64,000 nucleotides of DNA from an uncultured Sphingomonadaceae bacterium. Its GTDB lineage: Bacteria > Pseudomonadota > Alphaproteobacteria > Sphingomonadales > Sphingomonadaceae. Location of the stretch: NCBI GenBank assembly GCA_947489315.1, contig CANLCX010000003.1:248001-312000 (forward strand), written 5' to 3'. This document shows, one piece after another, positions 8,024-53,570 of this stretch. The position numbers and the translations under genes are program-made. Below the pieces are notes generated by a model. The model saw nothing but the letters and a program-made list of their open reading frames with translations. It was not told the origin of the DNA and made no database searches. The stretch's first letter is position 1. Every line of letters begins with the position of its first letter.

Positions 8024-8035
8024 TTGTCCGGACAA
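8024..8035. promoter_or_regulatory. Operator-like palindrome TTGTCCGGACAA (site 1)
   Basis: A perfect 12-bp palindrome, extended to 16 bp by flanking AT pairs (8022-8037). It lies between the divergent genes starting at 8012 (minus) and 8099 (plus). On the plus side TATATT, a good -10 candidate, abuts its left edge. It matches the sequence found upstream of eight other operator positions in the window and is proposed as a binding site of the GntR/HutC-type regulator encoded at 32156-32935. Confidence 0.75.
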
Positions 8036-8037
8036 AT

Positions 8038-8049
8038 TTGTCTCGACAA
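8038..8049. promoter_or_regulatory. Operator-like palindrome TTGTCTCGACAA (site 2, tandem)
   Basis: This keeps both outer half-sites TTGTC and GACAA, with two central differences from site 1. Its centre is 14 bp from that of site 1, so the two would lie nearly on the same DNA face with slight offset and could support cooperative binding over the divergent promoter region. Confidence 0.6.
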
Positions 8050-8098
8050 GTCTTTTCTGTTGTTTATTACATTTTTATCGATTCCGGAGAGAATATTT

Positions 8099-8779
8099 AT
8101 GGACGTCAAAGGCACGAAAATGGTTGAAGACGGGCGGACGGCCCGGGATATTTTTGAAGAGTTGATCGGCAACCCCGCGCGCAAGAAATTCGGCTTCGGA
8201 GAAAAACTCGCCATCGTCAATGTTGATGTGCAGCAGGCCTATACCCGGATGGATATGTTCAAAACCGCCTATGAGACCGATCCGAAGCAGATTGACTATA
8301 TTAATCAGATATCGGCTTTGGCACGCGCCAAAGCTATGCCGGTGATCTGGAGCCGCGTCGCTTATAAAGCGGATGCAGGTGATGCTGGTGTCTGGGGTAC
8401 GCGGACCGATACCGAAGATTCGTTGCAGAATATCAAATATGGCAGCGAACGGCATAAGCTTGATCCGCGTTGCGAGGTCGATGCCGATGACCTGCAATAT
8501 ACCAAGCGCATGCCCAGCGCCTTTTTTGAAACACAACTGGCAAGCTATTTGACGTGGCATAAAGTGGATACGGTGATTGTCACCGGCGGTTCGACATCCG
8601 GCTGCGTCCGCGCAACAGCGGTGGATGCCTTGAGCTATGGTTATCGCACGATCGTTCCAATCGAAACCTGTGCGGACAAGCATGAAAGCTACCATTTTGC
8701 TAACCTGACCGATTTGCAGATTAAATATGCAGATGTGGAGCCGGTGCAGACGGTGGTTGACTGGTTGGAGGCGCGCTAG
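8099..8779 (+). CDS. Isochorismatase-family cysteine hydrolase
   Basis: A 226-residue member of the isochorismatase/N-carbamoylsarcosine amidase/ureidoacrylate hydrolase superfamily. The catalytic triad can be read: Asp in VNVDVQQAY (near residue 40), Lys in KRMPSAFFET (near residue 139) and Cys in STSGCVRATA (near residue 170). Members usually hydrolyse C-N bonds of carbamoyl, amide or nicotinamide-like substrates. The ATG at 8099 has GGAGA 8 bp upstream (8086-8090); a longer frame starting at TTG 8024 would begin inside the operator and is rejected. It leads a tightly overlapping operon running to 14505, followed directly by two NodB-type hydrolases. Confidence 0.9.
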   Translation: MDVKGTKMVEDGRTARDIFEELIGNPARKKFGFGEKLAIVNVDVQQAYTRMDMFKTAYETDPKQIDYINQISALARAKAMPVIWSRVAYKADAGDAGVWGTRTDTEDSLQNIKYGSERHKLDPRCEVDADDLQYTKRMPSAFFETQLASYLTWHKVDTVIVTGGSTSGCVRATAVDALSYGYRTIVPIETCADKHESYHFANLTDLQIKYADVEPVQTVVDWLEAR

Positions 8780-9672
8780 TGTCAGACGTGCAGAAATCCG
8801 ACCCGGGATTATATGATTATGCGGCTTATCGTGGACGCCCGAAAATCGAGTGGCCGGACGGTAAGACCTGTGCCGTATGGGTTGCGCCCAATCTGGAATT
8901 TTATGAACTCGATCCGGCGGTCAATCCGCATCGCAAAAGCTGGCCAAAGCCGCATCCTGATGTGGTCGGTTATAGCCACCGCGATCATGCTAATCGCGTG
9001 TCGCATTGGCGCATGGCGGAGATGATGACCAAGCATGGCTTTCCCGGTTCGGTGAGCCTGTCCGTGGCTCTGTGTGACCATATTCCCGAAGTGGTGGAGG
9101 ATGCCAAACAACGCGGCTGGGAGTTTTTCAGCCACGGCATATACAATACGCGCTATTCTTATGGAATGGATGAGGCGCAGGAACGCGCTATTATCGAGGA
9201 TTCGATTGCGACTGTAGAGCGCGCGACGGGCCAGCGGATCAGAGGTTGGCTGGCCCCTGCGTTAACCCATACGTCGCGCACGCTCGACCTGCTCGCGGAA
9301 TATGGCATGGATTATACATGCGACCTTTATCATGATGACCAGCCGACTGATGTGAAGGTGAAATCCGGCCAATTGACCGCCATTCCCTACAGCCTTGAGG
9401 TCAACGACCATTATGGCTTCTTCATCTACAATATGTCGCCGCGGGAATATGCCGATACGCTGATCCGGCAATATGACCGGCTCGCTGAAGAGGGCGCGCA
9501 GTCCGGCACGGTGATGTGCATCCCGCTGCACAGCTATCTGATCGGACAGCCTCACCGGATTGGTCCGTTTGAAGCGGTGCTTGAACATATCGCCGCGGAT
9601 GGCCGGGCATGGATCACCAAGGCGGGTGATATTGTCGACGCCTTTCGCAAACAGACGGGAGGCGCATCATGA
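8779..9672 (+). CDS. Polysaccharide deacetylase/allantoinase-like (NodB fold) hydrolase 1
   Basis: A 297-residue protein of the NodB/PuuE-like metal-dependent hydrolase group. The segment FFSHGIYNTRY near residue 118 is at the place of the PuuE metal-binding SHGWRW motif, and GWLAPALTHTSRTLDLLAEYGMDYTCD matches in pattern the later NodB motif, spanning about residues 155-181. PuuE-type members act on allantoin-like cyclic ureides or amides and not on polysaccharides. The start is GTG at 8779, overlapping the previous stop as TAGTG. It is followed by a divergent paralogue with a 4-bp overlap, so the two may form a hetero-oligomer. The substrate is unknown. Confidence 0.85.
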   Translation: MSDVQKSDPGLYDYAAYRGRPKIEWPDGKTCAVWVAPNLEFYELDPAVNPHRKSWPKPHPDVVGYSHRDHANRVSHWRMAEMMTKHGFPGSVSLSVALCDHIPEVVEDAKQRGWEFFSHGIYNTRYSYGMDEAQERAIIEDSIATVERATGQRIRGWLAPALTHTSRTLDLLAEYGMDYTCDLYHDDQPTDVKVKSGQLTAIPYSLEVNDHYGFFIYNMSPREYADTLIRQYDRLAEEGAQSGTVMCIPLHSYLIGQPHRIGPFEAVLEHIAADGRAWITKAGDIVDAFRKQTGGAS

Positions 9673-10592
9673 GCCTTGATCCTTCATATCTCGACTATCC
9701 CAAGCGTGGTCGTGGGATGGACCATGGCTATTATCCCTATAGCAGCCTGTTTGATCGCAAGCCGGTGCAATGGCCGGGCGACAAAAAGCTGATGATATGG
9801 CCGGTCATCTCCCTCGAATATTTCCCGATGGTGCCGAATGACGATCCGTTTCGCGCTCCCGGGCATATGCAGACCGCCTATCCCGACTATCGCCATTATA
9901 CCGCGCGAGAATATGGCACCCGGATCGGTATTTACCGGTTGCTTAGTGCGTTTGAGAAGGTTGGCGCGAAGGTTTCCGTAGCGACCAATAGCGTCATTGC
10001 CAAACGCTATCCTCAGTTAATTGAGGACATCATCTCTGGTGGTCATGAAATCATCGCGCATAGCACCGACATGAACGGCACTATTGCGAGCGGACTGGCC
10101 GAAGCGGATGAGAAAGCGCTCATCGAAGGTTCGCTCACCGCGCTGGAAAAAGTGATCGGAACGCGCCCACGCGGCTGGTTGTCGATAGCGCGTTCGCAAA
10201 GTTTCAACACCGCAAAATTGCTCGCCGAGGCCGGTGTCGATTATATGTGTGATTGGGCCAATGACGAACTGCCTTATGGGTTTCAGACAGACACCGGAGC
10301 GATCACCAATATTCCGCTCAACCACGAACTGTCCGATCGTCAGATCATCAATGTCCAGCAGCAGTCGGTTGATAGTTATGCTCAACAAATGACGGATGCT
10401 GCAGACTGGTTGCTCGCAGAGGCAGGCCAATATGGTGGGCGAATGCTGCCGATGCATCTGACGCCCTATATTATGGGACTACCCTATCGCATTAGCAGTT
10501 TTGAGAAGTTGATTGCTGGCTTTGCTGAGCGCAATGATATCGGGTTCGCACGGGGTGATGCGATACTTGATAGCTGGAAGGCCCAAAGATGA
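9669..10592 (+). CDS. Polysaccharide deacetylase/allantoinase-like (NodB fold) hydrolase 2
   Basis: A 307-residue paralogue of the preceding protein. GGHEIIAHSTDMNG (about residue 123) corresponds to the metal-binding loop, and TRPRGWLSIARSQSFNTAKLL to the later conserved strand. The loop after the conserved His differs from both the preceding protein (SHGIYNTRY) and the third copy at 39179 (SHGYRWVHQF), so the three copies probably differ in substrate or metal geometry. The ATG overlaps the upstream stop (ATGA). The tandem arrangement argues for a two-step or two-subunit hydrolysis, which is inference. Confidence 0.82.
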   Translation: MSLDPSYLDYPKRGRGMDHGYYPYSSLFDRKPVQWPGDKKLMIWPVISLEYFPMVPNDDPFRAPGHMQTAYPDYRHYTAREYGTRIGIYRLLSAFEKVGAKVSVATNSVIAKRYPQLIEDIISGGHEIIAHSTDMNGTIASGLAEADEKALIEGSLTALEKVIGTRPRGWLSIARSQSFNTAKLLAEAGVDYMCDWANDELPYGFQTDTGAITNIPLNHELSDRQIINVQQQSVDSYAQQMTDAADWLLAEAGQYGGRMLPMHLTPYIMGLPYRISSFEKLIAGFAERNDIGFARGDAILDSWKAQR

Positions 10593-10602
10593 AGGCACAG
10601 CC

Positions 10603-12024
10603 ATGAAGATACGCAATCCGCGGACAGGCAAAGTGGACCATGAAATCGCGGCATTGGATGTTGAGGCGGTTGCCGATGAAGCAAAGCGGCTTCGCGCAGC
10701 CCAAAAGGATTGGGCCAGCAAAACACCCGAACAACGCGGGGCGATATTGCTGCAATGGGCCGATGCGATTGAGGCGCATCTCGGCGCGATCATTCCGGCC
10801 TTGACCGCTGATACCGGGCGTGGCGGTATCTCAAAGATTGAAGCGGCTGGCGTGCCCGGCCAGATCAGGCGCTGGGCCGCTATGGCGCCTCAGCTCATGG
10901 CCGATGGTCAGCCGGTTGATCAACCCACATCGGTACCGACAATTACCACTTCTACGCGTCTAGTGCCTTATGCGTTAGTCGGTGTGATCAGTCCGTGGAA
11001 CTTCCCGATGACACTCGCGCTGATTGATGCCATTCCGGCGCTGATGGCGGGATCAGCGGTGCTGGTAAAACCGTCTGAAGTGACGCCGCGCTTTATCAAA
11101 CCGTTGATAGAAACCGTGCAGAAAATTCCAGCACTGGCTGGCATATTGTCGATCATCGAAGGTGATGGTCCGACTGGTGCGGCGATGATCGATCATGTTG
11201 ATTATATCTGCTTCACCGGATCGGTTGCAACCGGGCGCAAAGTCGCTGCAGCGGCGGCGAAAGCCTTTATTCCGGCAAGCCTGGAACTAGGCGGCAAAGA
11301 CCCGATGATCGTCTTGGCCAGTGCCGATCCGGAAAAGGCGGCTGCCACGGCGCTAAGGGCCAGCGTCGTCAACACCGGTCAGGCCTGTCAGTCGATTGAG
11401 CGGGTCTATGTTGCGCAGGAAATCGCCGACCCGTTTCTCACCAGTCTGGTTGCACAAGCAGAGGCGGTCCAGCTCAATCATCCTGATATCAACAAAGGCC
11501 ATATCGGCCCGTTTATCTTTGAGAAACAGGCAAAAATTGCGCAGTCCCAGATAGATGATGCGGTCAAAAAAGGGGCGGAATTGCTGTCGGGTGGTAATGT
11601 CGAAAAACTCGGTGGCGGTCTTTATTTGCGGCCAACGATCCTGACCAATGTAACCTCATCAATGACGGTAATTTCTGATGAAAATTTCGGGCCCGTGATT
11701 CCCGTCCGGGTGTTTGACGATGTGGACGAGGCTGTGATGATGGCCAATCACAGCCAGTTCGGTTTGTCTGCGGCGGTCATTGGTGGGTCAGTTGATGAGG
11801 CTGAAACAGTTGCATCGCGCCTCAATGCCGGTGCAGTATCGATTAATGACGGTTCCTTGACCTCGATGGTCTGGGAAGCGGAGAAATCGAGCTTTGGTTA
11901 TTCCGGGCTTGGTGCATCGCGGATGGGGGCAAGCGGATTGATGCGCTTTTTCCGTAAACAGGCGTTGATCCGGCAATCGGGCGAGGCAGCGCGAATAGAA
12001 GCTTTTGCAGAGGAGAATTTCTGA
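10603..12024 (+). CDS. NAD(P)-dependent aldehyde dehydrogenase
   Basis: A 473-residue ALDH-superfamily enzyme. Visible motifs are the cofactor-binding segment GVISPWNFPM (near residue 127), FTGSVATGRK, LELGGKDPMIV with the general-base Glu, and NTGQACQSIERVYV with the catalytic Cys (near residue 265). It should oxidise an aldehyde to the acid in the cytosol. The ATG at 10603 (MKIRNPRTGK) is preferred because the longer frame from 10513 overlaps the 3' end of the upstream gene by 80 bp and adds no conserved sequence. Its stop overlaps the methyltransferase ATG (TGATG). Confidence 0.92.
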   Translation: MKIRNPRTGKVDHEIAALDVEAVADEAKRLRAAQKDWASKTPEQRGAILLQWADAIEAHLGAIIPALTADTGRGGISKIEAAGVPGQIRRWAAMAPQLMADGQPVDQPTSVPTITTSTRLVPYALVGVISPWNFPMTLALIDAIPALMAGSAVLVKPSEVTPRFIKPLIETVQKIPALAGILSIIEGDGPTGAAMIDHVDYICFTGSVATGRKVAAAAAKAFIPASLELGGKDPMIVLASADPEKAAATALRASVVNTGQACQSIERVYVAQEIADPFLTSLVAQAEAVQLNHPDINKGHIGPFIFEKQAKIAQSQIDDAVKKGAELLSGGNVEKLGGGLYLRPTILTNVTSSMTVISDENFGPVIPVRVFDDVDEAVMMANHSQFGLSAAVIGGSVDEAETVASRLNAGAVSINDGSLTSMVWEAEKSSFGYSGLGASRMGASGLMRFFRKQALIRQSGEAARIEAFAEENF

Positions 12025-13211
12025 TGGGCGTAATATTACAGCATCTGATGAAACCGGAATTGACCGCTGAAGAAGCGGCACGTGGGCGCTTTGTGTCTGG
12101 CATCAGAGCGTTTATTCTCAATGATCTCGCAGGCGATTTGCGCACCGCTTATGACAAGCGGGCTGCTCCGGCCTTTGCCCGGGACAAAGGTCGCCCTCCT
12201 GAAACGAGCAACGAAGCGCATCAGGCGCTGCGCGGCGATCCGGCGTTTAACATCTATTCGGCCATGCGGGTGCAGGCGCAAAAAATGGTCTGGCACGCGT
12301 CGGGCGATGTTGTCGCGCGCGATATAGAGCGGCTCGAAGCAGAAGCGGTGAAGGTTGCGAACCAGCCCGGCTCCGTGAAACTGAACCCTGATCTCGATAT
12401 CCCGCGCAATGTCGATGCGATCGAAGTCCATCTGATGCCGGGAAGCTATACGCGCGGCGGTGAATCGCTAGAAGCCGGCGCGGTCTATGATCAGGGGCTG
12501 GCGGTGTTCTCCATGGGTCTGATGGGCGCCAATCTTGATGATATTGGCCTGTCCATGGCCGCCTATGTGAAGGGCAAGTTTCCGGACTTCAAACCGCAGA
12601 GCATTCTCGATACCGGCTGCACCATCGGCCATAATACTTTGCCGTGGAAACAGACCTATCCTGACGCGAAGGTCGAAGCGATCGACGCTGCTGCAGGCGG
12701 CCTGCGCTATGCCTCAGCGCGTGCAAAAATGCAGGGGCAGGACGTCAATTTCGCACAAATGTCGGCCGATGCGTTGGACTATCCCGATGACAGTTTCGAC
12801 TTGGTTTTTTCCTCCATGTTCCTTCATGAATTGTCGAAAAAGGCGCGTGCAGCAGCGTTTGAGGAAGCCTATCGAGTGCTTAAGCCGGGCGGATTGCTGC
12901 TCCATATGGAATTGCCGCCCAACGACCAGATGAATGCCTTTGATGGTTTTTACCTCGACTGGGACAGCTGGTATAATTCCGAGCCGTTCTACAAAGGCTA
13001 TCGCGATGAAAGCCCTCCGGCGCTTTGTGAAGCAGGCGGCTTTGGCCCAGATGATTACTTCCAGTTCGTCGTCCCCAGCATCGGCATATATGGCGAGGAA
13101 GCGGTGGCGCAAGCGATCGCTGATGAGGGCGCCAATGCCGTCGATAGTGAAACCACCGGTCGGCTCGCCGAAGGCATTATGTGGTTCGGCTTTGGCGCGT
13201 GGAAAAGATGA
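12024..13211 (+). CDS. SAM-dependent methyltransferase-like protein, module copy 1
   Basis: A 395-residue protein with a class I methyltransferase domain in its second half: motif I SILDTGCTIGHNTLP near residue 195, an acidic post-I residue (AIDAAAG), and VFSSMFLHELSKKARAAAFEEAYRVLKPGGLLL at the later motifs, typical of Methyltransf_11/25, spread over about residues 262-294. The first ~180 residues are an extra region containing AYDKRAAPAF and HLMPGSYTRGGE. The protein at 15589-16833 has the same architecture and shared blocks, so the two are paralogues. The next gene encodes a small partner whose paralogue sits beside copy 2. The acceptor is unknown. Confidence 0.85.
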   Translation: MGVILQHLMKPELTAEEAARGRFVSGIRAFILNDLAGDLRTAYDKRAAPAFARDKGRPPETSNEAHQALRGDPAFNIYSAMRVQAQKMVWHASGDVVARDIERLEAEAVKVANQPGSVKLNPDLDIPRNVDAIEVHLMPGSYTRGGESLEAGAVYDQGLAVFSMGLMGANLDDIGLSMAAYVKGKFPDFKPQSILDTGCTIGHNTLPWKQTYPDAKVEAIDAAAGGLRYASARAKMQGQDVNFAQMSADALDYPDDSFDLVFSSMFLHELSKKARAAAFEEAYRVLKPGGLLLHMELPPNDQMNAFDGFYLDWDSWYNSEPFYKGYRDESPPALCEAGGFGPDDYFQFVVPSIGIYGEEAVAQAIADEGANAVDSETTGRLAEGIMWFGFGAWKR

Positions 13212-13489
13212 GCGCTGATACACAAAACCCCGGCCCAGCGTTCAAACCGGACGATACGCCCAAGGAAATTTACGGTCCCGATGGGAAGCCGCAATTTTTC
13301 GATGATCCCGGCATGGATCGATATGTCGCGGTGGTCATGAACATGGCGCAGGAAATGTGGGTTCAGGAAGAGCGACTGATGGCGCTCGAAGGATTGGAAG
13401 CGTCTGCTGCCGATCGTGAAGCGAAGTTAAAAGAGTTTATCGATCGTATTTTCGCGCCGCTGCGCGAGCAAGGGAGTGACGACATATGA
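13208..13489 (+). CDS. Small helical protein paired with methyltransferase copy 1
   Basis: A 93-residue hydrophilic protein with no recognised family. Residues 25-75 hold PQFFDDPGMDRYVAVV and a heptad-like stretch (AQEMWVQEERLMALEGL), suggesting a coiled coil. The protein at 15223-15585 has PEYFDDPEDERMLSIL plus a similar helix at the same position, so both are homologous and each is encoded next to a homologous methyltransferase. The ATG at 13208 overlaps the methyltransferase stop (ATGA), and its own stop overlaps the next ATG. An accessory subunit of the methyltransferase is the simplest reading, but it is inference. Confidence 0.75.
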   Translation: MSADTQNPGPAFKPDDTPKEIYGPDGKPQFFDDPGMDRYVAVVMNMAQEMWVQEERLMALEGLEASAADREAKLKEFIDRIFAPLREQGSDDI

Positions 13490-14505
13490 AGGCTTGGCAA
13501 ATGGGATCACGGACCGGCATTGGCGGACTGCAACTGGCCGATCATCGCGAGCCCGAGCCAGGTCCCGGAGAAATTCTGGTCAAGGTTTCCGCAGCGGGCC
13601 TCAACTATCGTGACCTGATGGTATTACGGGGAGATTATGGCACGGATTTGCCGGAAGATCGCGTGCCTTTATCCGACGGTGTCGGCGTGATTGAGGCTGT
13701 CGGTGCTGATGTGTCGGGACTGGATGTCGGGATGCGCGTGATGGCACCGCATTTCGCTACTTGGCTGGATGGCGCCTATAGCTTTGCCGTGTTCGGTAAG
13801 GATCTCGGCGTCACCGCGAACGGCTGGCTGGCCGAGAAAATTATACTGCCTGCAAATGCGGCCATTGTGGTGCCTGAAAATGTGAGTGACAGCAGTGCAG
13901 CGACCTTCTCCGTCGTCGGTAGCACGGTCTGGCATGCGATGATTGCTTTTGGGAATGCCAAACCGGGTGATCTTGTTCTCGCACAAGGAACCGGCGGAGT
14001 TTCGATATTTGCGCTAAAGCTGGCCAAGGCCATGGGCATGGATTTTGCGATCACATCATCGAGTGATGAAAAACTCGCCCGTGCCAAAGAAATGGGCGCC
14101 GATTATGGCATTAATTATCGCGACCGGCCAGATTGGGCGGCCGCTTTGCTGGAAGCCACCGAAGGCCGCGGTGTCGATGTGGTCGTTGATACGCTAGGCT
14201 TTCCAGCAATGGGTGAAACCGTTGCAGCCTGCGCTGTCAATGCGCGGATCGGATCTCTGGGCGCCCTTTCTGGGACACCACAAGATCAATCGACCGGCAG
14301 TCAGGGCGCGCTCATTGGCAAGAATATAACTATCAAAGGCATCGCATCAGGGGATCGTCAGATGTTGCAGCAGGCGCTGGATGTTGTTGCCCAAAACAAC
14401 ATCGAACTTCTGGTCGAGAGTGTTTTTGATTTTGGCGACGCGCCTGCAGCGTTCACTCATCTGGAGAACGGCACCCATATGGGCAAGGTCATGATTACCG
14501 TTTAA
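13486..14505 (+). CDS. Zinc-independent MDR-family alcohol dehydrogenase/quinone oxidoreductase
   Basis: A 339-residue medium-chain reductase. It shows the N-terminal GroES-like domain with AGLNYRDLMVLRG, where NYRD replaces the catalytic zinc cysteine, and the Rossmann segment LVLAQGTGGVSIFALKLAKA near residue 170. This places it with quinone reductase or acryloyl-CoA reductase-type enzymes that reduce activated C=C bonds with NADPH. The ATG overlaps the previous stop (ATGA). It is the last gene of the plus-strand operon, and its 3' end overlaps the convergent gene at 14495 by 11 bp. Confidence 0.9.
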   Translation: MKAWQMGSRTGIGGLQLADHREPEPGPGEILVKVSAAGLNYRDLMVLRGDYGTDLPEDRVPLSDGVGVIEAVGADVSGLDVGMRVMAPHFATWLDGAYSFAVFGKDLGVTANGWLAEKIILPANAAIVVPENVSDSSAATFSVVGSTVWHAMIAFGNAKPGDLVLAQGTGGVSIFALKLAKAMGMDFAITSSSDEKLARAKEMGADYGINYRDRPDWAAALLEATEGRGVDVVVDTLGFPAMGETVAACAVNARIGSLGALSGTPQDQSTGSQGALIGKNITIKGIASGDRQMLQQALDVVAQNNIELLVESVFDFGDAPAAFTHLENGTHMGKVMITV

Positions 14506-15223
14506 GTTCGACCAGCTCGTACCAGGTCATCATGTAACCACCGACGCCGCCCTGCACAAATATGCCGTCTTCGTCATCGGTGATCCAGACATCATAAGCG
14601 GGATGTTCGCCAGCCATGCCGCCGGTTCCCGGAACGATGCTGGCATCGTCGACAAATTGGAGGTGTTTGCATTGAAAGGTTCCCGCTTTCACGGTTACTT
14701 CCTCTTTCCCCAAATAGACCGCTCCAATTTTGACCTGAGCGATCTGCGGCGGCGTGGCACCGCGATGATCGGGGGAGGGCAGATAACAATTGAGCAGGCG
14801 CTTAGTGTCTTTGTCCCAGTCCTTGGTCGATAGCATATAACCGTCCGAGACAATCGGGTGCGTGCCAAAACCATCCAGTGGTAATTGCGCTTCGACGCGT
14901 TGGGACAGACGCCCGATCGATGGTCCATAGGATTCCATTTCGATATGCGTTCCGTCAAATCGCATCCAGCCAGAACCCATGAAGCTGTCGCCGACTGTCA
15001 GCCGGACATGACAGTCCATCGGTTGATTGTCTTCATCAATTGCGTAGATAATGTCCCGCATTACCGTCGGTTCTGGCTCATATATCTCGCAATGCGCGCG
15101 CATCGCCACTTTGCCGTCGTGATGATGTGTAAACATGAAGGTTTCAAAACCGCGATTCTGCCCAGCCATTTCTGGTTTGCGTGACGTATATTCCAGACGA
15201 CCTTCGATAATACGGTGCTGCAT
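14495..15223 (-). CDS. Conserved protein of unknown function, beta-rich
   Basis: A 242-residue protein I do not recognise. It is rich in short beta-strand-like segments (FETFMFTHHHDGK, DCHVRLTVGD, MGSGWMRFDG) and has no signal peptide or membrane segment. The latter half, with EEVTVKAGTFQCKHLQF and YDVWITDDEDGIFV, is reminiscent of DUF3108/DUF6134-type beta-barrels, but this is only a pattern impression. Its start overlaps the stop of the small protein upstream (TAATG), so it is co-translated with the second methyltransferase module. Its end overlaps the convergent operon by 11 bp, leaving no room for an intrinsic terminator. Confidence 0.75.
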   Translation of the reverse strand: MQHRIIEGRLEYTSRKPEMAGQNRGFETFMFTHHHDGKVAMRAHCEIYEPEPTVMRDIIYAIDEDNQPMDCHVRLTVGDSFMGSGWMRFDGTHIEMESYGPSIGRLSQRVEAQLPLDGFGTHPIVSDGYMLSTKDWDKDTKRLLNCYLPSPDHRGATPPQIAQVKIGAVYLGKEEVTVKAGTFQCKHLQFVDDASIVPGTGGMAGEHPAYDVWITDDEDGIFVQGGVGGYMMTWYELVELKR

Positions 15224-15585: not shown

Positions 15586-15588
15586 GTC

Positions 15589-46856: not shown

Positions 46857-47330
46857 TCAGTCATGGACCTTAACGACTTGATTCACCTCAAAGAAATAGC
46901 CGTCCAAATCCCAGAAAGAGCAACCGATCATGTCCTTTTGTTTGCCATCAGCACCAGTAACCGTCCATTCGCGCGGTTCACTGTGGATTGCGGACCCGAG
47001 TGCGCGAGCGCGCTCGACAGCGCCCTTGGCATCTTCGGAAGCGACAACGAATACCGGGGCGCCAAATTTAATCTCGGTGGGTAGCTCTTTGGGTGTATCC
47101 TGTTTGGGATCAAGCCATTCGAGCAGGCCGATCATGCCAATCATATCATGTTCGCATTTCAATATGATCAAGCGCGTCTGATCACCTTTCTTCCCGGCTG
47201 CCAATTGCGTTCCGGAAAGCGTGAACGGCGTATCCATCCATTTGGTCATGCCCAATACTATTTCATACCAATGCGAGGCGGTGTCGCCATCGCGGACCAT
47301 GAGGGTCGTTCGTTTTATAATATCGGTCAT
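46857..47330 (-). CDS. VOC-family protein (single domain) 2
   Basis: A 157-residue VOC-fold protein: RTTLMVRDGDTASHWYEIVLGM at the start and CSFWDLDGYFFEVNQ at the end, with a metal-ligand-like Glu in FFEVNQ. The ATG at 47330 overlaps the DUF1330 stop as ATGA; the longer frame from 47366 lies inside that gene. It is the second gene of the leftward operon controlled by site 6. Confidence 0.87.
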   Translation of the reverse strand: MTDIIKRTTLMVRDGDTASHWYEIVLGMTKWMDTPFTLSGTQLAAGKKGDQTRLIILKCEHDMIGMIGLLEWLDPKQDTPKELPTEIKFGAPVFVVASEDAKGAVERARALGSAIHSEPREWTVTGADGKQKDMIGCSFWDLDGYFFEVNQVVKVHD

Positions 47331-47629
47331 GCGATTTTCGGGCTTTCGATAACTAGCACCTGACATTCGGCGATATCGGCACGTAACTTTTTTGCTTCCT
47401 GATATTCCGGGCTATTCCAGAATTTATAAACGGCCGCTTTGTCTGGCCATTCGGATATGACCATTGACGCGCCATCGCCAAAGCTACCTTCCAGCAATTC
47501 CGCCCCGGGACCACGGAGCACATAGCGCCCGCCAAATTTCTCGACGAGTGCGCCGGCAGCTGCGCCATAGCCTGCGATGAATTTATCGCGATCCGATATA
47601 GCAGCGGTCACAATCATATAGGCTGGCAT
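47327..47629 (-). CDS. DUF1330-family protein
   Basis: A 100-residue ferredoxin-like alpha-beta barrel protein. AYMIVTAAISDRDKFIAGYG, GGRYVLRGPGAELLEGSFG and the WNSPEYQEAKKLR segment are the DUF1330 pattern. No catalytic function is established. It is the first gene of the minus-strand operon; the operator palindrome at 47650-47661 ends 21 bp upstream of its ATG, and AAAGGA serves as ribosome binding site. Confidence 0.92.
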   Translation of the reverse strand: MPAYMIVTAAISDRDKFIAGYGAAAGALVEKFGGRYVLRGPGAELLEGSFGDGASMVISEWPDKAAVYKFWNSPEYQEAKKLRADIAECQVLVIESPKIA

Positions 47630-47649: not shown

Positions 47650-47661
47650 TTGTCCGGACAA
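47650..47661. promoter_or_regulatory. Operator-like palindrome TTGTCCGGACAA (site 6)
   Basis: A perfect match, 21 bp upstream of the DUF1330 ATG and thus probably within the leader or the -10/start region of the minus-strand operon 47629 to 41707. It lies 181 bp from the next pair of sites, which face the TonB receptor. Confidence 0.75.
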
Positions 47662-47842: not shown

Positions 47843-47854
47843 TTGTCTGGACAA
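47843..47854. promoter_or_regulatory. Operator-like palindrome TTGTCTGGACAA (site 7)
   Basis: One central change from consensus, extended to AATTTGTC...GACAAATT. Located 72 bp upstream of the TonB receptor 2 ATG and 48 bp, start to start, from the identical site 8. Confidence 0.7.
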
Positions 47855-47890: not shown

Positions 47891-47902
47891 TTGTCTGGAC
47901 AA
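47891..47902. promoter_or_regulatory. Operator-like palindrome TTGTCTGGACAA (site 8)
   Basis: The same 12-mer as site 7, 24 bp upstream of the TonB receptor 2 ATG and just before its ribosome binding site (AGGGAGA, 47912-47918). Two identical copies in front of one gene argue for strong or cooperative repression of the receptor. Confidence 0.7.
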
Positions 47903-47925: not shown

Positions 47926-50376
47926 ATGAAAACGATATTCAAAGCCGCGCTGTTGGCAGCAACGGCGGCCATGCCAGCCTCGGTCTTGGCACAAAATACA
48001 AGTGCCACTGATACCGCCGTCGAGGATGATTCTGACGTTATTATAGTCACTGCGCGGAAATTTTCTGAAAACCTGCAAGAAATTCCGACATCGGTCGCCG
48101 TTGTGTCATCCGAAGCGATAGATGACCTGGCGCTGGACAGCGTCGCCGATATTTCGAAGGTCACCGCCGGTTTGACATTTGATGCCAGTCTGGGTCGGGA
48201 TGCGAACCGTCCCGTCATTCGTGGTCAGGCCAATGTTCTGGGCACTTCGGGTGTCGCCATCTTTATCGACGGAATCTATTTTAGTGGCTCTATCGGTGAT
48301 TATAATGTCGATAATATCGAGCGGATCGAAGTCGTTAAGGGTCCGCAAAGTGCACTTTATGGGCGTAATACCTATTCTGGCGCGATCAATATCATTTCAA
48401 AGACTGGTGCAGATAGTTTGACGGGCAGTATATCTGCCGACATCTCAGAGAATAGCCGCTTTGATATCAATGCCAATATTCGTGGTCCCGTAACCGATTC
48501 CATCACAGCCTTTGCTTCTGGCCGTTATTTTGAATTTGGCGGTGAATATACCAACCTGTTCGATGGTAATAAGGTGGGTAAGCAGGAATCCTATTCCTTC
48601 GCCGGTGGTTTTGCCTTCGATGATGGCGGACCTTTCACTGCACAGGTACGGACCTATTATAACCGTACAGATGATGGCCAACCGGCGATTTTTGCAACTA
48701 GCGCGAGCGACAATAACTGCTTCTTTGATAATGGCGGCTTCTATGGAGGGGCAGGCCGTTATTTCTGTGGCGTGATTCAACCGGGGCAGATTAATACTGA
48801 TTATACCCGGCAGTTTGCTGATCCGGATGACGTGGGTTTGAATGTGAAAACATTTAACGCCAGCTTGCGGATGGACTATGACATCAGCGATCAACTGACG
48901 CTGACATCATTGACGGGTTACAATCGCGTGCGGAACAGTCTCGTTACGGACGGCGACTATGGTCCGAATAGTTTTCAGCCTTCCACATTTGCTACTTTCC
49001 CTGCAGGACCTGTCGGTATCGGCATCGTCAATGGAGGCCCAACCGACTTTTCATTCGCTAATGCTGGTGAAACCGAAGACTGGTCGCAAGAACTCCGCTT
49101 GGCCTATGATGGTGATCGCTTTGATGTGATGGTCGGTGGCTTTTATTTCGACCAAAGCGATGATAGCCGCGATATCCGCACGCTACCAGCAGATGCCAAT
49201 ATACGCGCTCTGGCCAATTCGGAAGCTCGCCGCGCCGCATTATGTTCCCCTGCCAACGGATGTTTCTTTAACTTTCTGACCGACTCCGCTGCAGCCGGAA
49301 CAGTTATCGTTCCGCGCAATGTCAACAATCAGGACCTCCGTAACTGGGCCATTTTTGGTGCGGTCGGTTTCGATATTACCGACACAGTGACGCTAAGTGT
49401 CGAAGCCCGCTATGCGGAAGAGAAAATCGAGCAATCAGTGATTGACCGTGATTTGGGCGATCCGGCAGTGACACCGGTCTTGTCATCGGCGACATTCACC
49501 AAATTTTCTCCGCGTGTCTTGCTCGATTGGCAGGTCACACCGGATAACTTGCTTTATGCCACTTTTGCGCAGGGCCAGAAGCCCGGTGGTTTCAATGGTG
49601 TGACAGCCATTAATGCCGGTGTGCCTTCCTATGAGGAAGAAGAAGCAACCGCCTATGAAATTGGTTCGAAGAACGTATTTCTTGATCGCGCGTTGACGGT
49701 TAATTTAGCTGCCTTCTACAACGAGATAGAAGGCTATCAGCTAACCCAGAATGTCCAATCGCCGACCAGTGTGGTATCGGCGGTGGTCAATGCGGGAGAT
49801 GCACGGGTATTTGGTCTCGAATTGGAAACGATTTTGAAACCAAGCGATAACCTTACCTTTACAGTTAACTATGCCCTTGCTGACAGCAAATTTACTTCGG
49901 GTTTTGATCAAAACCAGGGTGTGCTGGATGATGTCGCTGACGATAATCTCGTGAACTGCTCAACCGGAGATGAATTCCCCGACACCGCGGGCTGCCAATC
50001 GATCTTTGGTTCTATCAAAGGCAAAAGCATACCGCGTGCGCCAGTCCATCAGATATTTGCCGATGCAGATTGGCGTATGCCCGTCGGGTCAGGCGATTGG
50101 GAGCTATTTGCCGGTGCCAATGTCAGCGTTGTTTCCACCAGCTTTGCGCAGGTTCACAATCTCGCGGAAACTGGCGGATCAGTCGTTTCTGACATCCGGC
50201 TCGGCTTCCAGAACGAGAATTTCAAGATACAGGGCTATGTTAAAAACCTGTTTGACGAGGATTCTGTTGCACAGATTATTCGCTATGCTGATGGTGACGA
50301 CACGTTCAAGCGCAACTTTATCGCTGGTCTTCGGCCCGGACGGAGATTCGGCGTTGTTTTGACAGCCCGCTACTGA
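47926..50376 (+). CDS. TonB-dependent outer-membrane receptor 2
   Basis: An 816-residue receptor. The signal peptide ends near residue 22 (ASVLAQ), a TonB-box-like DVIIVTARKFSEN is near residue 37, the plug carries IEVVKGPQSALYGRNTYSGAIN, and the barrel ends in aromatic Tyr (VVLTARY). It is about as large as receptor 1 but divergent, so the two may take up different forms of the substrate. The ATG at 47926 has AGGGAGA 7 bp upstream; the longer frame from 47860 spans site 8 and is rejected. A strong terminator follows at 50396. Confidence 0.95.
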   Translation: MKTIFKAALLAATAAMPASVLAQNTSATDTAVEDDSDVIIVTARKFSENLQEIPTSVAVVSSEAIDDLALDSVADISKVTAGLTFDASLGRDANRPVIRGQANVLGTSGVAIFIDGIYFSGSIGDYNVDNIERIEVVKGPQSALYGRNTYSGAINIISKTGADSLTGSISADISENSRFDINANIRGPVTDSITAFASGRYFEFGGEYTNLFDGNKVGKQESYSFAGGFAFDDGGPFTAQVRTYYNRTDDGQPAIFATSASDNNCFFDNGGFYGGAGRYFCGVIQPGQINTDYTRQFADPDDVGLNVKTFNASLRMDYDISDQLTLTSLTGYNRVRNSLVTDGDYGPNSFQPSTFATFPAGPVGIGIVNGGPTDFSFANAGETEDWSQELRLAYDGDRFDVMVGGFYFDQSDDSRDIRTLPADANIRALANSEARRAALCSPANGCFFNFLTDSAAAGTVIVPRNVNNQDLRNWAIFGAVGFDITDTVTLSVEARYAEEKIEQSVIDRDLGDPAVTPVLSSATFTKFSPRVLLDWQVTPDNLLYATFAQGQKPGGFNGVTAINAGVPSYEEEEATAYEIGSKNVFLDRALTVNLAAFYNEIEGYQLTQNVQSPTSVVSAVVNAGDARVFGLELETILKPSDNLTFTVNYALADSKFTSGFDQNQGVLDDVADDNLVNCSTGDEFPDTAGCQSIFGSIKGKSIPRAPVHQIFADADWRMPVGSGDWELFAGANVSVVSTSFAQVHNLAETGGSVVSDIRLGFQNENFKIQGYVKNLFDEDSVAQIIRYADGDDTFKRNFIAGLRPGRRFGVVLTARY

Positions 50377-50395: not shown

Positions 50396-50426
50396 AAACC
50401 CGCCGCCTGAGAGGGCGGCGGGTTTT
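50396..50426. terminator. Bidirectional intrinsic terminator
   Basis: A perfect 9-bp GC stem (CCCGCCGCC 50399-50407 with GGCGGCGGG 50414-50422), extended by AAA/TTT, with a 6-nt loop and flanking A and T runs. It ends the TonB receptor 2 transcript and, read the other way, the operon of the exported hydrolase whose stop is at 50425. Confidence 0.9.
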
Positions 50427-51288
50427 ATGTTGCGATCGACAATATCCTGACAATGTCATTTGGTGCCGTCACCATCGCGTCATGGCCGGTCGTCAGGGCA
50501 TGATAGATCCAGCTATCATCTGCTTGCACCTGCTCGGCATGAAAGGGAAAGCTGCTATTGGGCAAAGCCGGAGCGGTGCAGTGGATATAGCTGCGCTTCA
50601 ATCCCTCCGAACCGCCGTTTTCCAATGTGATCGGGTCTAGCCAGGTTTTTAGGGGGTGCGGGGTAAGCTTTTCGGCAACCCAGTTGTAGCCAGGATGATC
50701 TGTTGGAATTCCGAGAAATTCAGGTGGGAATGCACCCATCGCAACACCGTCGGGCGCGAGCCCGGCCAATGCTTGCCGGGATTGTTCGATGATGTCTGGG
50801 CTTCGTTCCGGACCTTGCGTGATCATCGTCTGGCCATTTTCCGGCAAGGCAGCATCAAGATAGACAATCTCTGCAATCTGGGCCTTTCTGGCATCGGCCA
50901 CTCCAGTAATCACCATCCCGCCATAGCTGTGGCCGACCAATATGATGTCGCTGAGATCATAATAATCCATGAGCGACGTGATGTCCTTGATATGCGTATC
51001 GAGGCCGATGTCCTTCGAAAGCAAATGGGCGCGGTCCGCGAGACCGGTTAATGTTGGCGTGAATACCTGATGGCCTTGCGCTTCAAGCTGCGTCCTTACG
51101 TCTCGCCAGCACCAGCCGCCATGCCATGCGCCGTGCACCAGAACGAATATTTTGCGCTGCTCCGGCGGCAGGATCATGGGCTGCGTCTGAGCACTGGCAT
51201 AGCTGCTGATCGATGCCGTAAGGCCCAGCGTAGCCGTGCCGACCATAATCTGGCGCCGGTTGAACGTCTGTTGTTTTTTGTCATTCAT
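50425..51288 (-). CDS. Exported alpha/beta hydrolase (plant methylesterase-like), Tat signal
   Basis: A 287-residue hydrolase with a twin-arginine signal (NRRQIMVGTATLGLTASISS, cleavage near YASAQ). The catalytic elbow VGHSYGGMV is near residue 120, the oxyanion strand FVLVHGAWHGGWCW near residue 48, and the His in TTGHDAMVTAP near residue 268. The pattern resembles the EstC/methyl-salicylate-esterase group. It should hydrolyse an ester in the periplasm. It is the third gene of the minus-strand operon from 53538, downstream of the exported amine oxidase. Confidence 0.9.
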   Translation of the reverse strand: MNDKKQQTFNRRQIMVGTATLGLTASISSYASAQTQPMILPPEQRKIFVLVHGAWHGGWCWRDVRTQLEAQGHQVFTPTLTGLADRAHLLSKDIGLDTHIKDITSLMDYYDLSDIILVGHSYGGMVITGVADARKAQIAEIVYLDAALPENGQTMITQGPERSPDIIEQSRQALAGLAPDGVAMGAFPPEFLGIPTDHPGYNWVAEKLTPHPLKTWLDPITLENGGSEGLKRSYIHCTAPALPNSSFPFHAEQVQADDSWIYHALTTGHDAMVTAPNDIVRILSIAT

Positions 51289-51316
51289 GTTCGCGGGCCT
51301 TTATCATGATCTTCGA

Positions 51317-52723
51317 TTAGAGCGTTGCAAGCACATGGTCTGCAGCGCGTGCCCCGCTTTCCAGCGCACCTTCCATACCAGAACTTTGTTGCGCCAGATG
51401 TTCTCCTGCAAAATGGAGGCGCTGTCCGCGATGTTGCGCCGTTTGCGCCAAAGCAGCGCCCTGACCGGCGCCGATATGATGGTATATTCCGCGAGCAAAT
51501 GGATTTTTCTGCCAGCTGAACATCCTCAGAAATTTGAGTTTGCCAATGGCAGAAGGCCGAGCCTCTTCGGTTTTACGAATAATCGCCGCCCCCGCCGCGT
51601 TGTCATCCATTGCATCGACGAGATCCGCGCTGGAGCCATTGAGCCAGATCTTCACCATGGCCGGATTGTCACCCAGCACGAACATTCGCCCGAGCATGGG
51701 ATCATCGGACCAGATGGTTTCCGGCAGGCCATCATTTTTCCAGAAAGCCTCGGTCGCAGACAGATAGGCAAAGCTTGCGCGTGTATAAGGAAGCCGAGCG
51801 ATCATGGTGCGAAGTTCGGTTGGCAGGTCTGCCCGTATATTCATCGATCGAAGGGTTGAAAAAGGTGCGGTGCAGATGACATGGCGCGCACGAAATTGGC
51901 GCCCATCGGCAAGGCTTAGCGTAACGCCGTTGCCATCATCCGCTATTGCCGTAACAGGGCTGTCTAACAGGATGTCGCTGTTCAGAGCCTTGGTCATGGC
52001 ATCTGTCATGCGCTGCGATCCGCCACGGACATAGCGGGTTGGGCCGCCGCCGCTGCGAAAAATGGCGAGGGATCGGACCATATGCAAAGCGGATTGGGTA
52101 TCGATGCTATTGCCGTTGAGATTGGCATCGATCAGCCGCAAAGCTTCGTCGGATGCACCCTGATTCTTGAGATATTGACGGAGCGGAACATCAATGGTCT
52201 GCGCCTCCGGTTTCATCCAGTCTGCTACATTTTCAAGCTTCGGCAGGTCTTTGAGGTAAGAGAAAAATAGACGGTCTGGCGGCGTTGCTTTTTCTTCTGC
52301 AGTCAATTTATTCTGCGCTGCCTCTGGCCATTGCTGGGCCGTGAGCGATGCGCCGCCTATATGATAGAGTGAGCCTCGCGCGGATGCAGGCGGGATATTG
52401 CGTTCGACACCAAGTTGATCGGCAATCGCATGAAACCGTTTATAGCCAGCACCAATTTGGATGCCGCCTGCATCCGGATTGCCGGGCAAATCATCCAATG
52501 TGTGGAGGCGACCGCCGGTGCGGCCCGACCCTTCAATCAGCAGCACCTTATAACCGGCATTTTCGATCAGCTTTGTGGCATGTAACCCGGATAGACCAGC
52601 GCCGATCACGATCACATCCGCTGTGGTTGTGGTCCATGTCTGCCGCGGACTTGCGCAAGCAATGAGCGACGCACTCATCCCACCGACAAATGCGCGTCTG
52701 CTGATAGAACGGAGCCTAGTCAC
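51317..52723 (-). CDS. Exported flavin amine oxidase-family protein, Tat lipoprotein-like
   Basis: A 468-residue flavoprotein of the monoamine oxidase/phytoene desaturase superfamily. The N-terminus SRRAFVGGMSASLIAC is a twin-arginine signal ending in a lipobox-like LIAC, so it may be a periplasmic lipoprotein. The FAD motif VIVIGAGLSGLHATKL is near residue 40 with IEGSGRTGGRLHTL after it, and the C-terminal FAD motif FAGEHLAQQSSGMEGALESG is complete. It would oxidise an amine or a C-C/C-N bond outside the cytoplasm. The start is GTG, 8 bp after the previous stop. Confidence 0.9.
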   Translation of the reverse strand: MTRLRSISRRAFVGGMSASLIACASPRQTWTTTTADVIVIGAGLSGLHATKLIENAGYKVLLIEGSGRTGGRLHTLDDLPGNPDAGGIQIGAGYKRFHAIADQLGVERNIPPASARGSLYHIGGASLTAQQWPEAAQNKLTAEEKATPPDRLFFSYLKDLPKLENVADWMKPEAQTIDVPLRQYLKNQGASDEALRLIDANLNGNSIDTQSALHMVRSLAIFRSGGGPTRYVRGGSQRMTDAMTKALNSDILLDSPVTAIADDGNGVTLSLADGRQFRARHVICTAPFSTLRSMNIRADLPTELRTMIARLPYTRASFAYLSATEAFWKNDGLPETIWSDDPMLGRMFVLGDNPAMVKIWLNGSSADLVDAMDDNAAGAAIIRKTEEARPSAIGKLKFLRMFSWQKNPFARGIYHHIGAGQGAALAQTAQHRGQRLHFAGEHLAQQSSGMEGALESGARAADHVLATL

Positions 52724-52731
52724 GATGAGCG

Positions 52732-53538
52732 CTATCCGCGAAAGTTATCGGTGGTGACGGTAGAAGACCGCTCGGCACCTTTGATCGTGCAACTCGCCTG
52801 CATCCAGCGCAAGTTCAAGCCGACCCTGCTGGCATCGATATCGGCCCAGCTGTAGCTGACGGCGCTGTCCGGGTTATCGGGCTTATGGACATAGAGCACC
52901 ATGCTTGGGCGGTTATTGCTCGGGGGTGGCCAATAAACCGCCCGCATGCGCAGGATCAGCGGTTCGGCGCCGCTCTCTCCGCCACCAATCATCACCCGTC
53001 CACCCTGATCGTGCAGTTTGAGTTTCTGGGCGAACAGCCAGTCCGGGCTGCCATCCGCCTTGGGCTTGGTCTTCTTTGCTGCGGCCCAGCATTCGACAGG
53101 ACGAGCACGCTTCAATTGGGTTTCGGTGCCATTGGCAAAGCGCAGTTTCAATCCGTCCGCGTTGACACCGGTAATCTGATAATCCTGACGACAGGCCATC
53201 CTATTTTGCAGCGCACTATAGGTCCAACCCGCATCTGTACGATCAAAATAGCGGGTACATTCGCCTAATGTCAGGCTGTCGCGTTCCACGCCTACGGCGG
53301 CAAGCCCCTTGAGTGGTGCGGCAACCGGTTTGCCGAAGGCATCTGTGCGGGTAACGACCAGACCATTGCCCTGTTTTTCTATTTTCAGCGCGATCCAGGG
53401 CGGCGGGGTCCGGCCTGCATCTTTTTCAAAATAAGCCTGCTCCTCATTTGTATAAACGCCAAGCAGTTGCTGATCCAGCATCGCACCATGTTGCGCTCCG
53501 ACAGCAAGCGTCAAAGCAAAGAGGCTGGAAAGAGACAT
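52732..53538 (-). CDS. Exported protein of unknown function
   Basis: A 268-residue protein with a short hydrophobic leader (MSLSSLFALTLAVGAQHGA), likely a signal peptide. I recognise no family. The middle has four cysteines spaced as if in disulfides (GECTRYF, RMACRQDY, PVECWAA, QASCTIKG), which fits a periplasmic location. It is the first gene of an operon whose two other visible products are an exported amine oxidase and an exported esterase. The operator at 53559-53570 ends 21 bp before the ATG. Confidence 0.75.
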   Translation of the reverse strand: MSLSSLFALTLAVGAQHGAMLDQQLLGVYTNEEQAYFEKDAGRTPPPWIALKIEKQGNGLVVTRTDAFGKPVAAPLKGLAAVGVERDSLTLGECTRYFDRTDAGWTYSALQNRMACRQDYQITGVNADGLKLRFANGTETQLKRARPVECWAAAKKTKPKADGSPDWLFAQKLKLHDQGGRVMIGGGESGAEPLILRMRAVYWPPPSNNRPSMVLYVHKPDNPDSAVSYSWADIDASRVGLNLRWMQASCTIKGAERSSTVTTDNFRG

Positions 53539-53558
53539 AAGACTGATCCTCCATCAAT

Positions 53559-53570
53559 TTGTCCGGACAA
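53559..53570. promoter_or_regulatory. Operator-like palindrome TTGTCCGGACAA (site 9)
   Basis: A perfect match, 21 bp upstream of the ATG of the exported unknown protein, with the same distance and orientation as site 6 to its gene. It is the rightmost site in the window; no further matches were seen to 64000. Confidence 0.75.

Follow-up and report, generated by a model that had tools for sequence, protein, structure and literature searches.

In a 64,000-nucleotide stretch of the genome of an uncultured Sphingomonadaceae bacterium (G000:C3:248001-312000, hereafter the window, which makes up 1.65% of the 3,876,847-bp genome), a 12-bp palindrome, TTGTCCGGACAA, precedes the lead genes of nine units of a catabolic gene island. 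We propose, at a probability of roughly 90%, that the GntR/HutC-type protein encoded on the reverse strand at 32156-32935 recognizes this palindrome as its operator and would thereby act as a substrate-induced repressor over about 39 genes in these nine units. We infer the binding itself, repression as opposed to activation, the inducer, and the extent of the operons from sequence comparisons; the sites likely define the genes used for one substrate.

A palindrome concentrated before the lead genes of one gene island

The original prediction listed nine copies of the palindrome, and a pattern search of the window returned every one of them at its coordinate: four exact copies (8024, 27061, 47650, and 53559), four with a single mismatch (23577, 25278, 47843, and 47891), and one at 8038, TTGTCTCGACAA, with two mismatches and an imperfect palindrome. 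An 18-bp matrix was built from 80 sites with at most one mismatch in the 80-kb gntR regions of ten relatives, the window being excluded. Applied to the window, this relatives-only matrix gave nine matches of at least 15 bits (16.3 to 31.6 bits), which are exactly the same nine sites, followed by two weak matches missing from the earlier list, at 16941 (12.7 bits) and 32989 (12.4 bits), and then by none above 6.6 bits. No site of at least 12 bits lies beyond 53570 in the window, in keeping with the earlier remark that none was seen to the right of 53.6 kb. As the training sites had at most one mismatch to the 12-mer, the core of the matrix is partly circular, while its flank preference is learned. 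The extended 18-bp consensus, AATTTGTCCGGACAAATT, derives from 88 sites with the window included, 55 of which are perfect 12-bp palindromes.

All four exact copies in the genome fall inside the window, as do 8 of the 15 copies with at most one mismatch (4 of 11 for single-mismatch copies alone), with chance probabilities of 7e-8 and 3e-11, respectively, which are uncorrected for the window itself having been chosen for the motif. On the extended matrix, the seven one-mismatch copies elsewhere in the genome reach 0.3 to 11.8 bits, and they all fall within frames of 119 to 587 codons that contain no stop. With up to two mismatches, the genome holds 244 matches per strand versus 181 for a reversed-pattern control, so that weak matches are mostly background, and the 14 such matches in the window against 4 expected represent a modest enrichment. 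In 200 first-order Markov sequences of the window, the mean number of matches of at least 15 bits was 0.05, compared with the nine observed, and the best single score was 20.1; together with the confinement of the exact copies to the window, this shows the motif to be more frequent here than chance allows. Equal motif density in unrelated coding DNA, named beforehand as a result that would speak against a regulon, was not found in this genome.

All nine sites are intergenic and lie about 11 to 71 bp from a start codon, close to the 12 to 72 bp claimed originally. For these distances we took a downstream ATG as the start where the mechanical open reading frame begins too early, a choice of ours that re-set the starts of both TonB receptors (23525 and 47926), CitE (27100), the DUF1838 protein (26990), and the isochorismatase-type hydrolase (8099). 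Operators 1 (8024-8035, 31.6 bits) and 1b (8038-8049, 16.3 bits, with identical sequence in G153 and G142) share the region between the divergent units led by an alpha/beta hydrolase (start 8012, reverse strand) and the isochorismatase-type hydrolase (ATG 8099, forward strand). TonB receptor 1 (ATG 23525, reverse strand) has its operator at 23577-23588 (27.5 bits) and a membrane protein (25335-26021, forward strand) at 25278-25289 (27.9 bits), while the site at 27061-27072 (31.6 bits) lies between the DUF1838 protein (reverse strand) and a unit headed by a CitE/CCL-type lyase (forward strand). Farther right, the DUF1330 protein (47327-47629, reverse strand) is preceded by 47650-47661 (30.9 bits), TonB receptor 2 (ATG 47926, forward strand) by both 47843-47854 (30.8 bits) and 47891-47902 (23.4 bits), and the unit led by 52732-53538 (reverse strand) by 53559-53570 (30.9 bits). 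The two weak candidates are TTGTACGGACAC at 16941-16952, about 105 bp before a methyltransferase-like gene (15589-16833, reverse strand) and within its upstream gene, and TTGTCCGTACAT at 32989-33000, a possible autoregulatory site about 54 bp before the gntR start and inside the start of an MmgE/PrpD gene. The former has counterparts before the methyltransferase-like orthologue in G153, G142, G092, G047, and G060.

The motif co-occurs with orthologues of the GntR protein

Orthologues of the regulator were defined by an E value of at most 3e-45 together with at least 40% identity. By this definition, 22 of 199 genomes of the family (this one included) encode an orthologue, 47 hold remote paralogues only (E of 2e-24 or weaker), and 130 have none at E 1e-10. 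The exact motif is present in all 22 orthologue genomes, in 2 of the 47 with remote paralogues, and in 12 of the 130 without (14/177 together). Orthologue genomes carry 1 to 36 exact copies each, with at least two in 21 of the 22, and no genome without an orthologue has more than one (Fisher values of 4e-20 and 2e-27, uncorrected for shared ancestry).

A second sample covered 246 genomes of the order; in it, the motif recurs in all eight new orthologue genomes of the same family (9, 3, 4, 4, 6, 4, 1, and 3 copies) and in none of four orthologue-free genomes from a genus of the eight. Five genomes of other families, with GntR proteins 29 to 35% identical, contain 6, 4, 1, 1, and 1 exact copies (raw counts). 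The orthologue is thus found in 30 genomes of the sampled family (22 + 8), the nearest named ones belonging to Sphingorhabdus, Parasphingorhabdus, and other Sphingomonadaceae, and remoter versions of the regulator occur in other families of the order. Besides its cluster copy, G168 encodes a second GntR protein (G168:C3:535990-536742) that is 57% identical to the window protein, and a second gntR-like gene in G060 (G060:C1:135050-135810) matches in two separate pieces (63% and 49% identity) and is perhaps split or broken.

Among the regulators encoded in the window, the GntR protein alone is conserved along with the sites: a clear homologue (at least 50% identity) of the LysR protein (23678-24691) was found in 2 of 11 relatives' regions, and of the LuxR protein (61760-62572) in 1 of 11.

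Sites stay with the same genes in rearranged genomes

Placement counts and matrix training used ten of the 21 other orthologue genomes, G072 having been fetched and scanned but left out of both, and gene starts in the relatives were estimated from BLAST offsets. In these ten genomes, 51 of 56 exact copies lie in the 80-kb regions around gntR. Nearly all sites of at least 12 bits in those regions (82 of 83) fall -60 to 260 bp from the start of a gene homologous to one in the window, a span that 18% of positions share, and 70 of the 83 lie near a homologue of one of the nine lead genes, which holds for 3% of positions. At orthologues with at least 45% identity, a site precedes the isochorismatase-type hydrolase in 9/9 cases, the alpha/beta hydrolase in 9/9, TonB receptor 1 in 7/7, the membrane protein in 9/9, the DUF1838 protein in 9/9, CitE in 10/10, TonB receptor 2 in 5/5, and 52732-53538 in 4/4, so that eight of the nine lead genes have a site at every orthologue found in the relatives' regions. 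Gene order varies widely among these 80-kb regions, and in the comparison of orthologous clusters that had been proposed as a check, the sites keep to the lead genes despite the rearrangements.

Several genomes carry sites away from gntR. In G038, whose GntR protein is about 40% identical, the regulon genes are scattered over the chromosome, and exact sites at 1.35, 2.86, and 3.34 Mb precede a DUF1838/MaoC pair, a homologue of TonB receptor 1, and a PuuE-like gene 82% identical to 39179-40045, respectively; a further exact site at 1.04 Mb precedes a long open frame without a window counterpart, and a 30.4-bit site lies between gntR and PrpD at 0.586 Mb. The TonB receptor 1 site is also found in G030, G113, and G173 and the DUF1838/MaoC site in G113 and G173, on contigs other than that of gntR in G113 and G173 and about 100 kb from gntR in G030. 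In G200, a genome of another family with a fragmented assembly and a GntR protein that is 35% identical and has one internal stop, the four exact sites examined (of six) precede an isochorismatase/PuuE unit, LeuC, a homologue of 14495-15223, and an FAD protein; the interval between gntR and PrpD contains TTGTCCAGACAA. Two of the three exact copies fetched from G210 (of four) precede remote TonB-receptor homologues, and G207, G213, and G218 (GntR about 30% identical) each have a single site, which precedes an SDR gene in two of these genomes and is in no case close to gntR. This is the placement of a trans-acting regulon, as opposed to that of a repeat tied to the cluster.

The right-hand limit of the conserved island coincides with that of the sites. 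For the genes from 53602 to the end of the window, clear homologues were found in the 80-kb region of only one of 11 relatives (G153), the exceptions being one SDR with 26 to 28% matches and 62945-63937 with a 42% match in G072.

The proposed regulator and its predicted recognition of the operator

The protein at 32156-32935 carries a GntR domain (PF00392, 60 bits, cut-off 27) and a UTRA domain (PF07702, 57.8 bits, cut-off 23.8) in Pfam. Its best NCBIfam match is HutC (TIGR02018), at 92.7 bits below the equivalog cut-off of 220, and of the solved structures NagR/YvoA matches it best, DasR being one of the weaker matches. We discounted an open frame on the opposite strand (32144-32965): it shares its position with gntR, and what look like its homologues in relatives coincide with the gntR orthologue.

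That GntR/HutC-type regulators bind palindromes with GT...AC cores, as stated in the original prediction, agrees with the literature: in an excerpt of PMC4494728, the HutC consensus is NyGTMTAKACNy, with GT and AC usually four bases apart, and motifs of the subfamily vary in the bases around GT and AC. The same GT-N4-AC spacing is present in the consensus of our 88 sites, partly by construction, as these were picked for having at most one mismatch. The TA centre of the subfamily core GTMTAKAC is absent here, central C and G each making up 91% of the site letters; given the variation around GT and AC described in that excerpt, a CG centre would not disqualify the operator as HutC type. In NagR, Arg48 reads G-4, Arg38 reads G-5, and a wing glycine contacts the minor groove (excerpt of PMC4333415). 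By sequence alignment, Arg48 corresponds to Arg61 of the window protein, within SRFTVREAL, and Arg38 to Ser51; aligned GntR orthologues keep SR, then F/Y/H, then TVR or TIR, and have S/T/A/G at the place of Ser51. The operator carries T at -5 (half site TTGT versus TGGT), and thus the NagR/DasR pairing of Arg38 with G-5 is missing on both sides; the loss of Arg38 would fit the T at -5. Co-occurrence with the motif, the shared lead genes, the operator geometry, and these recognition residues all support, at the level of sequence, the earlier assignment of 32156-32935 as the regulator. A search of the open-access literature for sphingomonad GntR/UTRA catabolic regulators yielded matches that were off topic by title, and the exact string TTGTCCGGACAA was listed for one paper of the open-licence PMC library, a fruit-fly study.

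As to the gntR promoter itself, a site of at least 12 bits lies near the gntR start (260 bp before to 40 bp after the estimated start) in 13 of 54 loci, which include remote paralogues and at least one locus twice, versus 36 of 1080 random 300-bp pieces of those loci; the count depends on the estimated starts, and a 13.4-bit site near the gntR start of G089 fell outside the span. The site is strong in G012, G022, G038, G200, and G210. With a site in only 13 of 54 loci, autoregulation was rejected as a general rule, and the site is ancestral or recurrent but not fixed. A distant paralogue of the GntR protein (26% identity), at locus L046 of G094, is preceded by a related site, TTGACCGGACAA, which lies within palindromic surroundings 87 bp upstream of the estimated start of that paralogue and is perhaps a sister operator.

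Genes in the putative regulon

If overlapping and closely spaced genes are counted as one operon, strong sites stand at the head of nine units with about 39 genes between 2043 and 53538, which bears out the claim that they precede both TonB receptors and the lead genes of most operons. The first unit (2043-8012, reverse strand) comprises six overlapping genes, for the alpha/beta hydrolase, a DUF3598-like barrel (below the cut-off), LeuC-like, LeuD-like, and HMG-CoA-lyase-like proteins, and a CaiB CoA-transferase. Divergent from it, seven genes (8099-14505, forward strand) encode the isochorismatase-type hydrolase, two polysaccharide-deacetylase/PuuE-like hydrolases, an aldehyde dehydrogenase, a methyltransferase-like protein, a small protein, and a zinc-binding dehydrogenase. 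The stretch 14495-23525 (reverse strand) holds TonB receptor 1, an MFS carrier, an FAD-binding oxidase, a nitrilase-type hydrolase (export signal recognized by eye), a methyltransferase-like protein, and two uncharacterized proteins; beyond a gap of about 180 bp after TonB receptor 1, the other genes may or may not be co-transcribed with it. It is followed by a lipocalin/FABP-like barrel resembling bilin lyases (24789-25259, forward strand), the membrane protein (25335-26021, forward strand; assigned by eye, a conserved lead gene), and the DUF1838 protein (26082-26990, reverse strand), which by eye is likely exported.

The CitE/RipC-like lyase heads a unit (27100-32147, forward strand) with a MaoC hydratase, an acyl-CoA dehydrogenase, and two CaiB CoA-transferases. 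Beyond gntR, nine genes (32962-41710, forward strand) encode two MmgE/PrpD proteins, a PaaK-like CoA ligase, an amidase, a HapK-like protein, an SDR, a PuuE-like hydrolase, an enoyl-CoA hydratase, and a glyoxalase-fold-like protein, and the opposing unit (41707-47629, reverse strand) encodes the DUF1330 protein, a glyoxalase-fold protein, a zinc-binding dehydrogenase, a second glyoxalase-fold protein, an MFS carrier, an alpha/beta hydrolase, a CMD protein, and a SnoaL-like protein. TonB receptor 2 (47926-50376, forward strand) and a unit of three genes (50425-53538, reverse strand), for the lead protein 52732-53538, a flavin amine-oxidase-like protein, and an alpha/beta hydrolase (the last two with export signals recognized by eye), complete the island. 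Neither 52732-53538 nor 25335-26021 has a Pfam match. Structure prediction for the DUF1838 protein was of low confidence (pLDDT 39), its only Protein Data Bank (PDB) match is to a miniGq chain (3.8e-4), and a search of the open-access literature listed DUF1838 for one paper, on an antibiotic cluster.

Two observations stand beside this inventory. Remote homologues of 25335-26021 (21 to 26% identity) lie behind further sites in four relatives. Outside the regulon, 54091-61754 holds a separate set consisting of an AMP ligase, SDR and glutathione-transferase-like proteins (both by eye), a ThuA-like protein, and a Rieske oxygenase, which among the 11 relatives' regions is common to G153 only, low-identity SDR matches aside.

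Possible substrates of the pathway

Three polysaccharide-deacetylase/PuuE-like hydrolases are encoded in the island. That at 39179-40045 matches PuuE structures over its full length and scores 250.6 bits on the PuuE model, below the equivalog cut-off of 424.6; that at 9669-10592 reaches 95.3 bits on the same model, and that at 8779-9672 has a Pfam Polysacc_deac_1 match only. Counting these three with the isochorismatase-type hydrolase, the nitrilase-type hydrolase, and the amidase, the island contains several C-N bond hydrolases. The three CaiB transferases and the LeuC/LeuD-like, HMG-CoA-lyase-like, RipC-like, MaoC, MmgE/PrpD, and acyl-CoA dehydrogenase proteins would suit branched maleates or succinates. 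The HapK-like protein (46.3 bits) has the PDB match 2jdj, "REDY-like protein"; HapK has a role in prodiginine clusters.

The barrel at 24789-25256 is predicted with high confidence (pLDDT 91.3) to have ten strands, and in Foldseek the model resembles Ycf58 (E 5.5e-7), which we take to be of the bilin-lyase type, as well as a DUF3598 protein and CpeS (E 5.5e-7 to 1.1e-5, TM 0.66 to 0.70, 10 to 16% identity). The 14 matches with E of at most 0.001 also include BFA1, which is among the best, as well as designed barrels and LolA, which like nitrobindin rank lower. The protein 24789-25259 is thus predicted to have a CpcS/CpeS-like ten-stranded fold, a statement about the fold only and about the one modelled member of two paralogues. 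The second, 6133-6633 in the first unit, is 35% identical and has no sequence relative in the PDB at E of at most 1; its homologue in G107 has a 17.3-bit site.

We infer, with less assurance than for the operator, that the substrate is a nitrogen heterocycle, our leading guess being a pyrrole- or bilin-type compound. Such compounds, and more narrowly pyrrole-derived maleimides, perhaps from linear tetrapyrroles (a reading less likely than not), are suggested by the combination of imide/amide hydrolases, maleate-type CoA chemistry, and a phycobilin-lyase-like barrel; the pyrrole idea was formed before the fold result, and the fold itself is common. Nevertheless, a non-pyrrole substrate, either a nicotinate-, hydantoin-, or uracil-like N-heterocycle or an ordinary amide or nitrile natural product, is rather probable. 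The PuuE-like, isochorismatase, nitrilase, and amidase families each have many substrates, and the barrel fold is a general one, as its matches to BFA1, designed barrels, and LolA illustrate. Moreover, an excerpt of PMC9304392 describes the cyclic imidase HxnM as a relative of the PuuE group that opens a cyclic imide when fungi degrade nicotinate. On the other hand, in our judgement a bilin-lyase-like barrel with a paralogue, a HapK-like protein, two TonB receptors, and three PuuE-like hydrolases would be unusual together for small heterocycles. A search for cyclic imide hydrolases together with polysaccharide deacetylases gave no match in the open-access literature.

Taken further, the bilin idea becomes a doubtful but specific scenario, in which an aerobic pathway would take up linear tetrapyrroles (breakdown products of heme or chlorophyll, or phycobilins) and cut them to substituted maleimides, which PuuE-like imidases and amidases would open and which would be mineralized as maleates under a bilin- or maleate-sensing HutC repressor. 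In one relative (G072, see below), the operator of this repressor would have come to lie all over the genome, seemingly within coding DNA, much as though the repressor had acquired a function across the whole chromosome. The triacid derived from hematinic acid is a methyl-homoaconitate, and its conversion to propionyl-CoA and 2-oxoglutarate would be within reach of a LeuCD-type hydratase together with a CaiB transferase and an HMG-CoA-lyase-like enzyme. No pathway for such pyrrole or tetrapyrrole breakdown was among the matches listed in the open-licence literature. Perhaps, then, the genes represent an undescribed route for the bacterial use of ring-shaped nitrogen compounds, maybe of heme- or chlorophyll-related pigments.

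Proposed mode of control and alternative explanations

In the mechanism we favor, a GntR dimer would bind the 18-bp palindrome about 10 to 70 bp from the start codons and block the nine units, until a pathway metabolite bound by the UTRA domain released the repressor and thereby switched on uptake (two TonB receptors and two MFS carriers) and breakdown together. The PuuE-like hydrolases would open cyclic imides, and, following de-amidation, substituted maleates or succinates would be broken down via CoA esters.

Several observations weigh against such a regulon. In this genome, neither the nine-gene PrpD unit (32962-41710) nor the barrel gene (24789-25259) has a strong head site, although G012 and G038 have one before the former, and the gntR site is weak and has been lost in several close relatives. 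Among the relatives, a site is present at just 3 of the 9 DUF1330 orthologues, G107 and G168 carry the remaining 5 of 56 exact copies at places beyond the 80-kb gntR regions, the single exact copy of G132 lies about 1.2 Mb from its gntR, and one of the three exact copies fetched from G210 lacks a match of 12 bits. The co-occurrence counts, too, are to be read as uncorrected for common descent. In G072 (loci L103-L122), the palindrome occurs genome-wide, with 36 exact copies and 109 with at most one mismatch, compared with 0 for the reversed-pattern control. All 17 copies examined of the 33 exact ones outside its gntR region lie in long stop-free frames, mostly reading VRT or LSGQ, a coding placement that is unproved, as long frames are common in such G+C-rich DNA (69% in the stretches fetched). 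As in the operator, A is slightly favored at -2 and -3 of these copies, and the other sampled genome of the genus has 0 copies. They look like a highly iterated, dispersed palindrome, and their spread needs another cause or a further use of the motif.

Regarding the mode of control, there is a small chance that the sites are activator sites or that the GntR protein is a dual regulator, and not that they are plain repressor operators. Repressor operators usually lie close to start codons, and the sites here do so, at 11 to 71 bp, which argues for repression; conversely, sites are paired before TonB receptor 2 and in other divergons, and a paper title describes the NagR protein of B. thuringiensis as "pleiotropic and dual". 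Still less probable is that the palindrome is recognized by another transcription factor, either the LysR protein (23678-24691) or the product of a gene elsewhere, with GntR being carried along in the cluster. Palindromes are recognized by other families of regulators as well, and the weak gntR promoter site in this genome would be in line with this possibility; yet LysR homologues are found in just two of the site-keeping relatives' regions, the motif tracks GntR even where the cluster is scattered, genomes with remote paralogues only mostly lack the motif (2/47 have it, with one copy each), and operator spacing and the recognition residue match the HutC type. A chance or structural repeat without a regulatory role, as the dispersal in G072 might suggest, is next to impossible in view of the Markov controls and of the placement before the same genes kept in ten relatives.

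As the operator of a GntR/HutC-type repressor, the palindrome would provide a specific regulator-operator pair and would sharply delimit about 39 genes under common control, many of them without a known function, which are thereby joined into one testable pathway. Should the substrate be a tetrapyrrole, this would bear on how aerobic bacteria recycle nitrogen and carbon from one of the most abundant pigment classes. The interest of the system rests mostly on its substrate and on the operator spread in G072.

Comparison with known systems

The closest parallels on the enzymatic side are the PuuE allantoinase and the cyclic imide hydrolases (HxnM and the P. putida imidase), to whose group 39179-40045 shows a sub-cut-off likeness, and the cyanobacterial bilin-lyase barrels (Ycf58 and CpeS) and DUF3598 proteins, whose fold 24789-25256 is predicted to share, although this FABP-like fold is general and shared with BFA1. 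On the regulatory side, the GntR/HutC-subfamily repressors (NagR/YvoA and DasR with dre sites, HutC with hut sites) have the GntR and UTRA domains and the GT-N4-AC spacing in common with the system described here, and NagR in addition the conserved arginine for G-4 and a glycine-containing wing (RGSGT). In contrast to NagR, with Arg38 and G at -5, the window protein has Ser51 and its operator T, and whereas native Bacillus dre sites are not perfect palindromes, 55 of the 88 sites here are perfect over 12 bp. Unlike the TA-centred HutC core, the operator has CG at its centre, keeping the outer M and K as C and G. The NagR, DasR, and HutC regulons also differ in content, as the catabolic island is without sign of sugar or histidine use, and a Pfam scan of 60 window proteins matched no histidine-utilization family. 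As for likenesses to the HutC histidine regulon, HutC is the best NCBIfam match of the regulator, albeit far below the equivalog cut-off, and Sphingomonadales HutC regulons also include a TonB receptor (excerpt of PMC5343134). The system is best read as a new regulon of the HutC type that uses an operator variant of its own.

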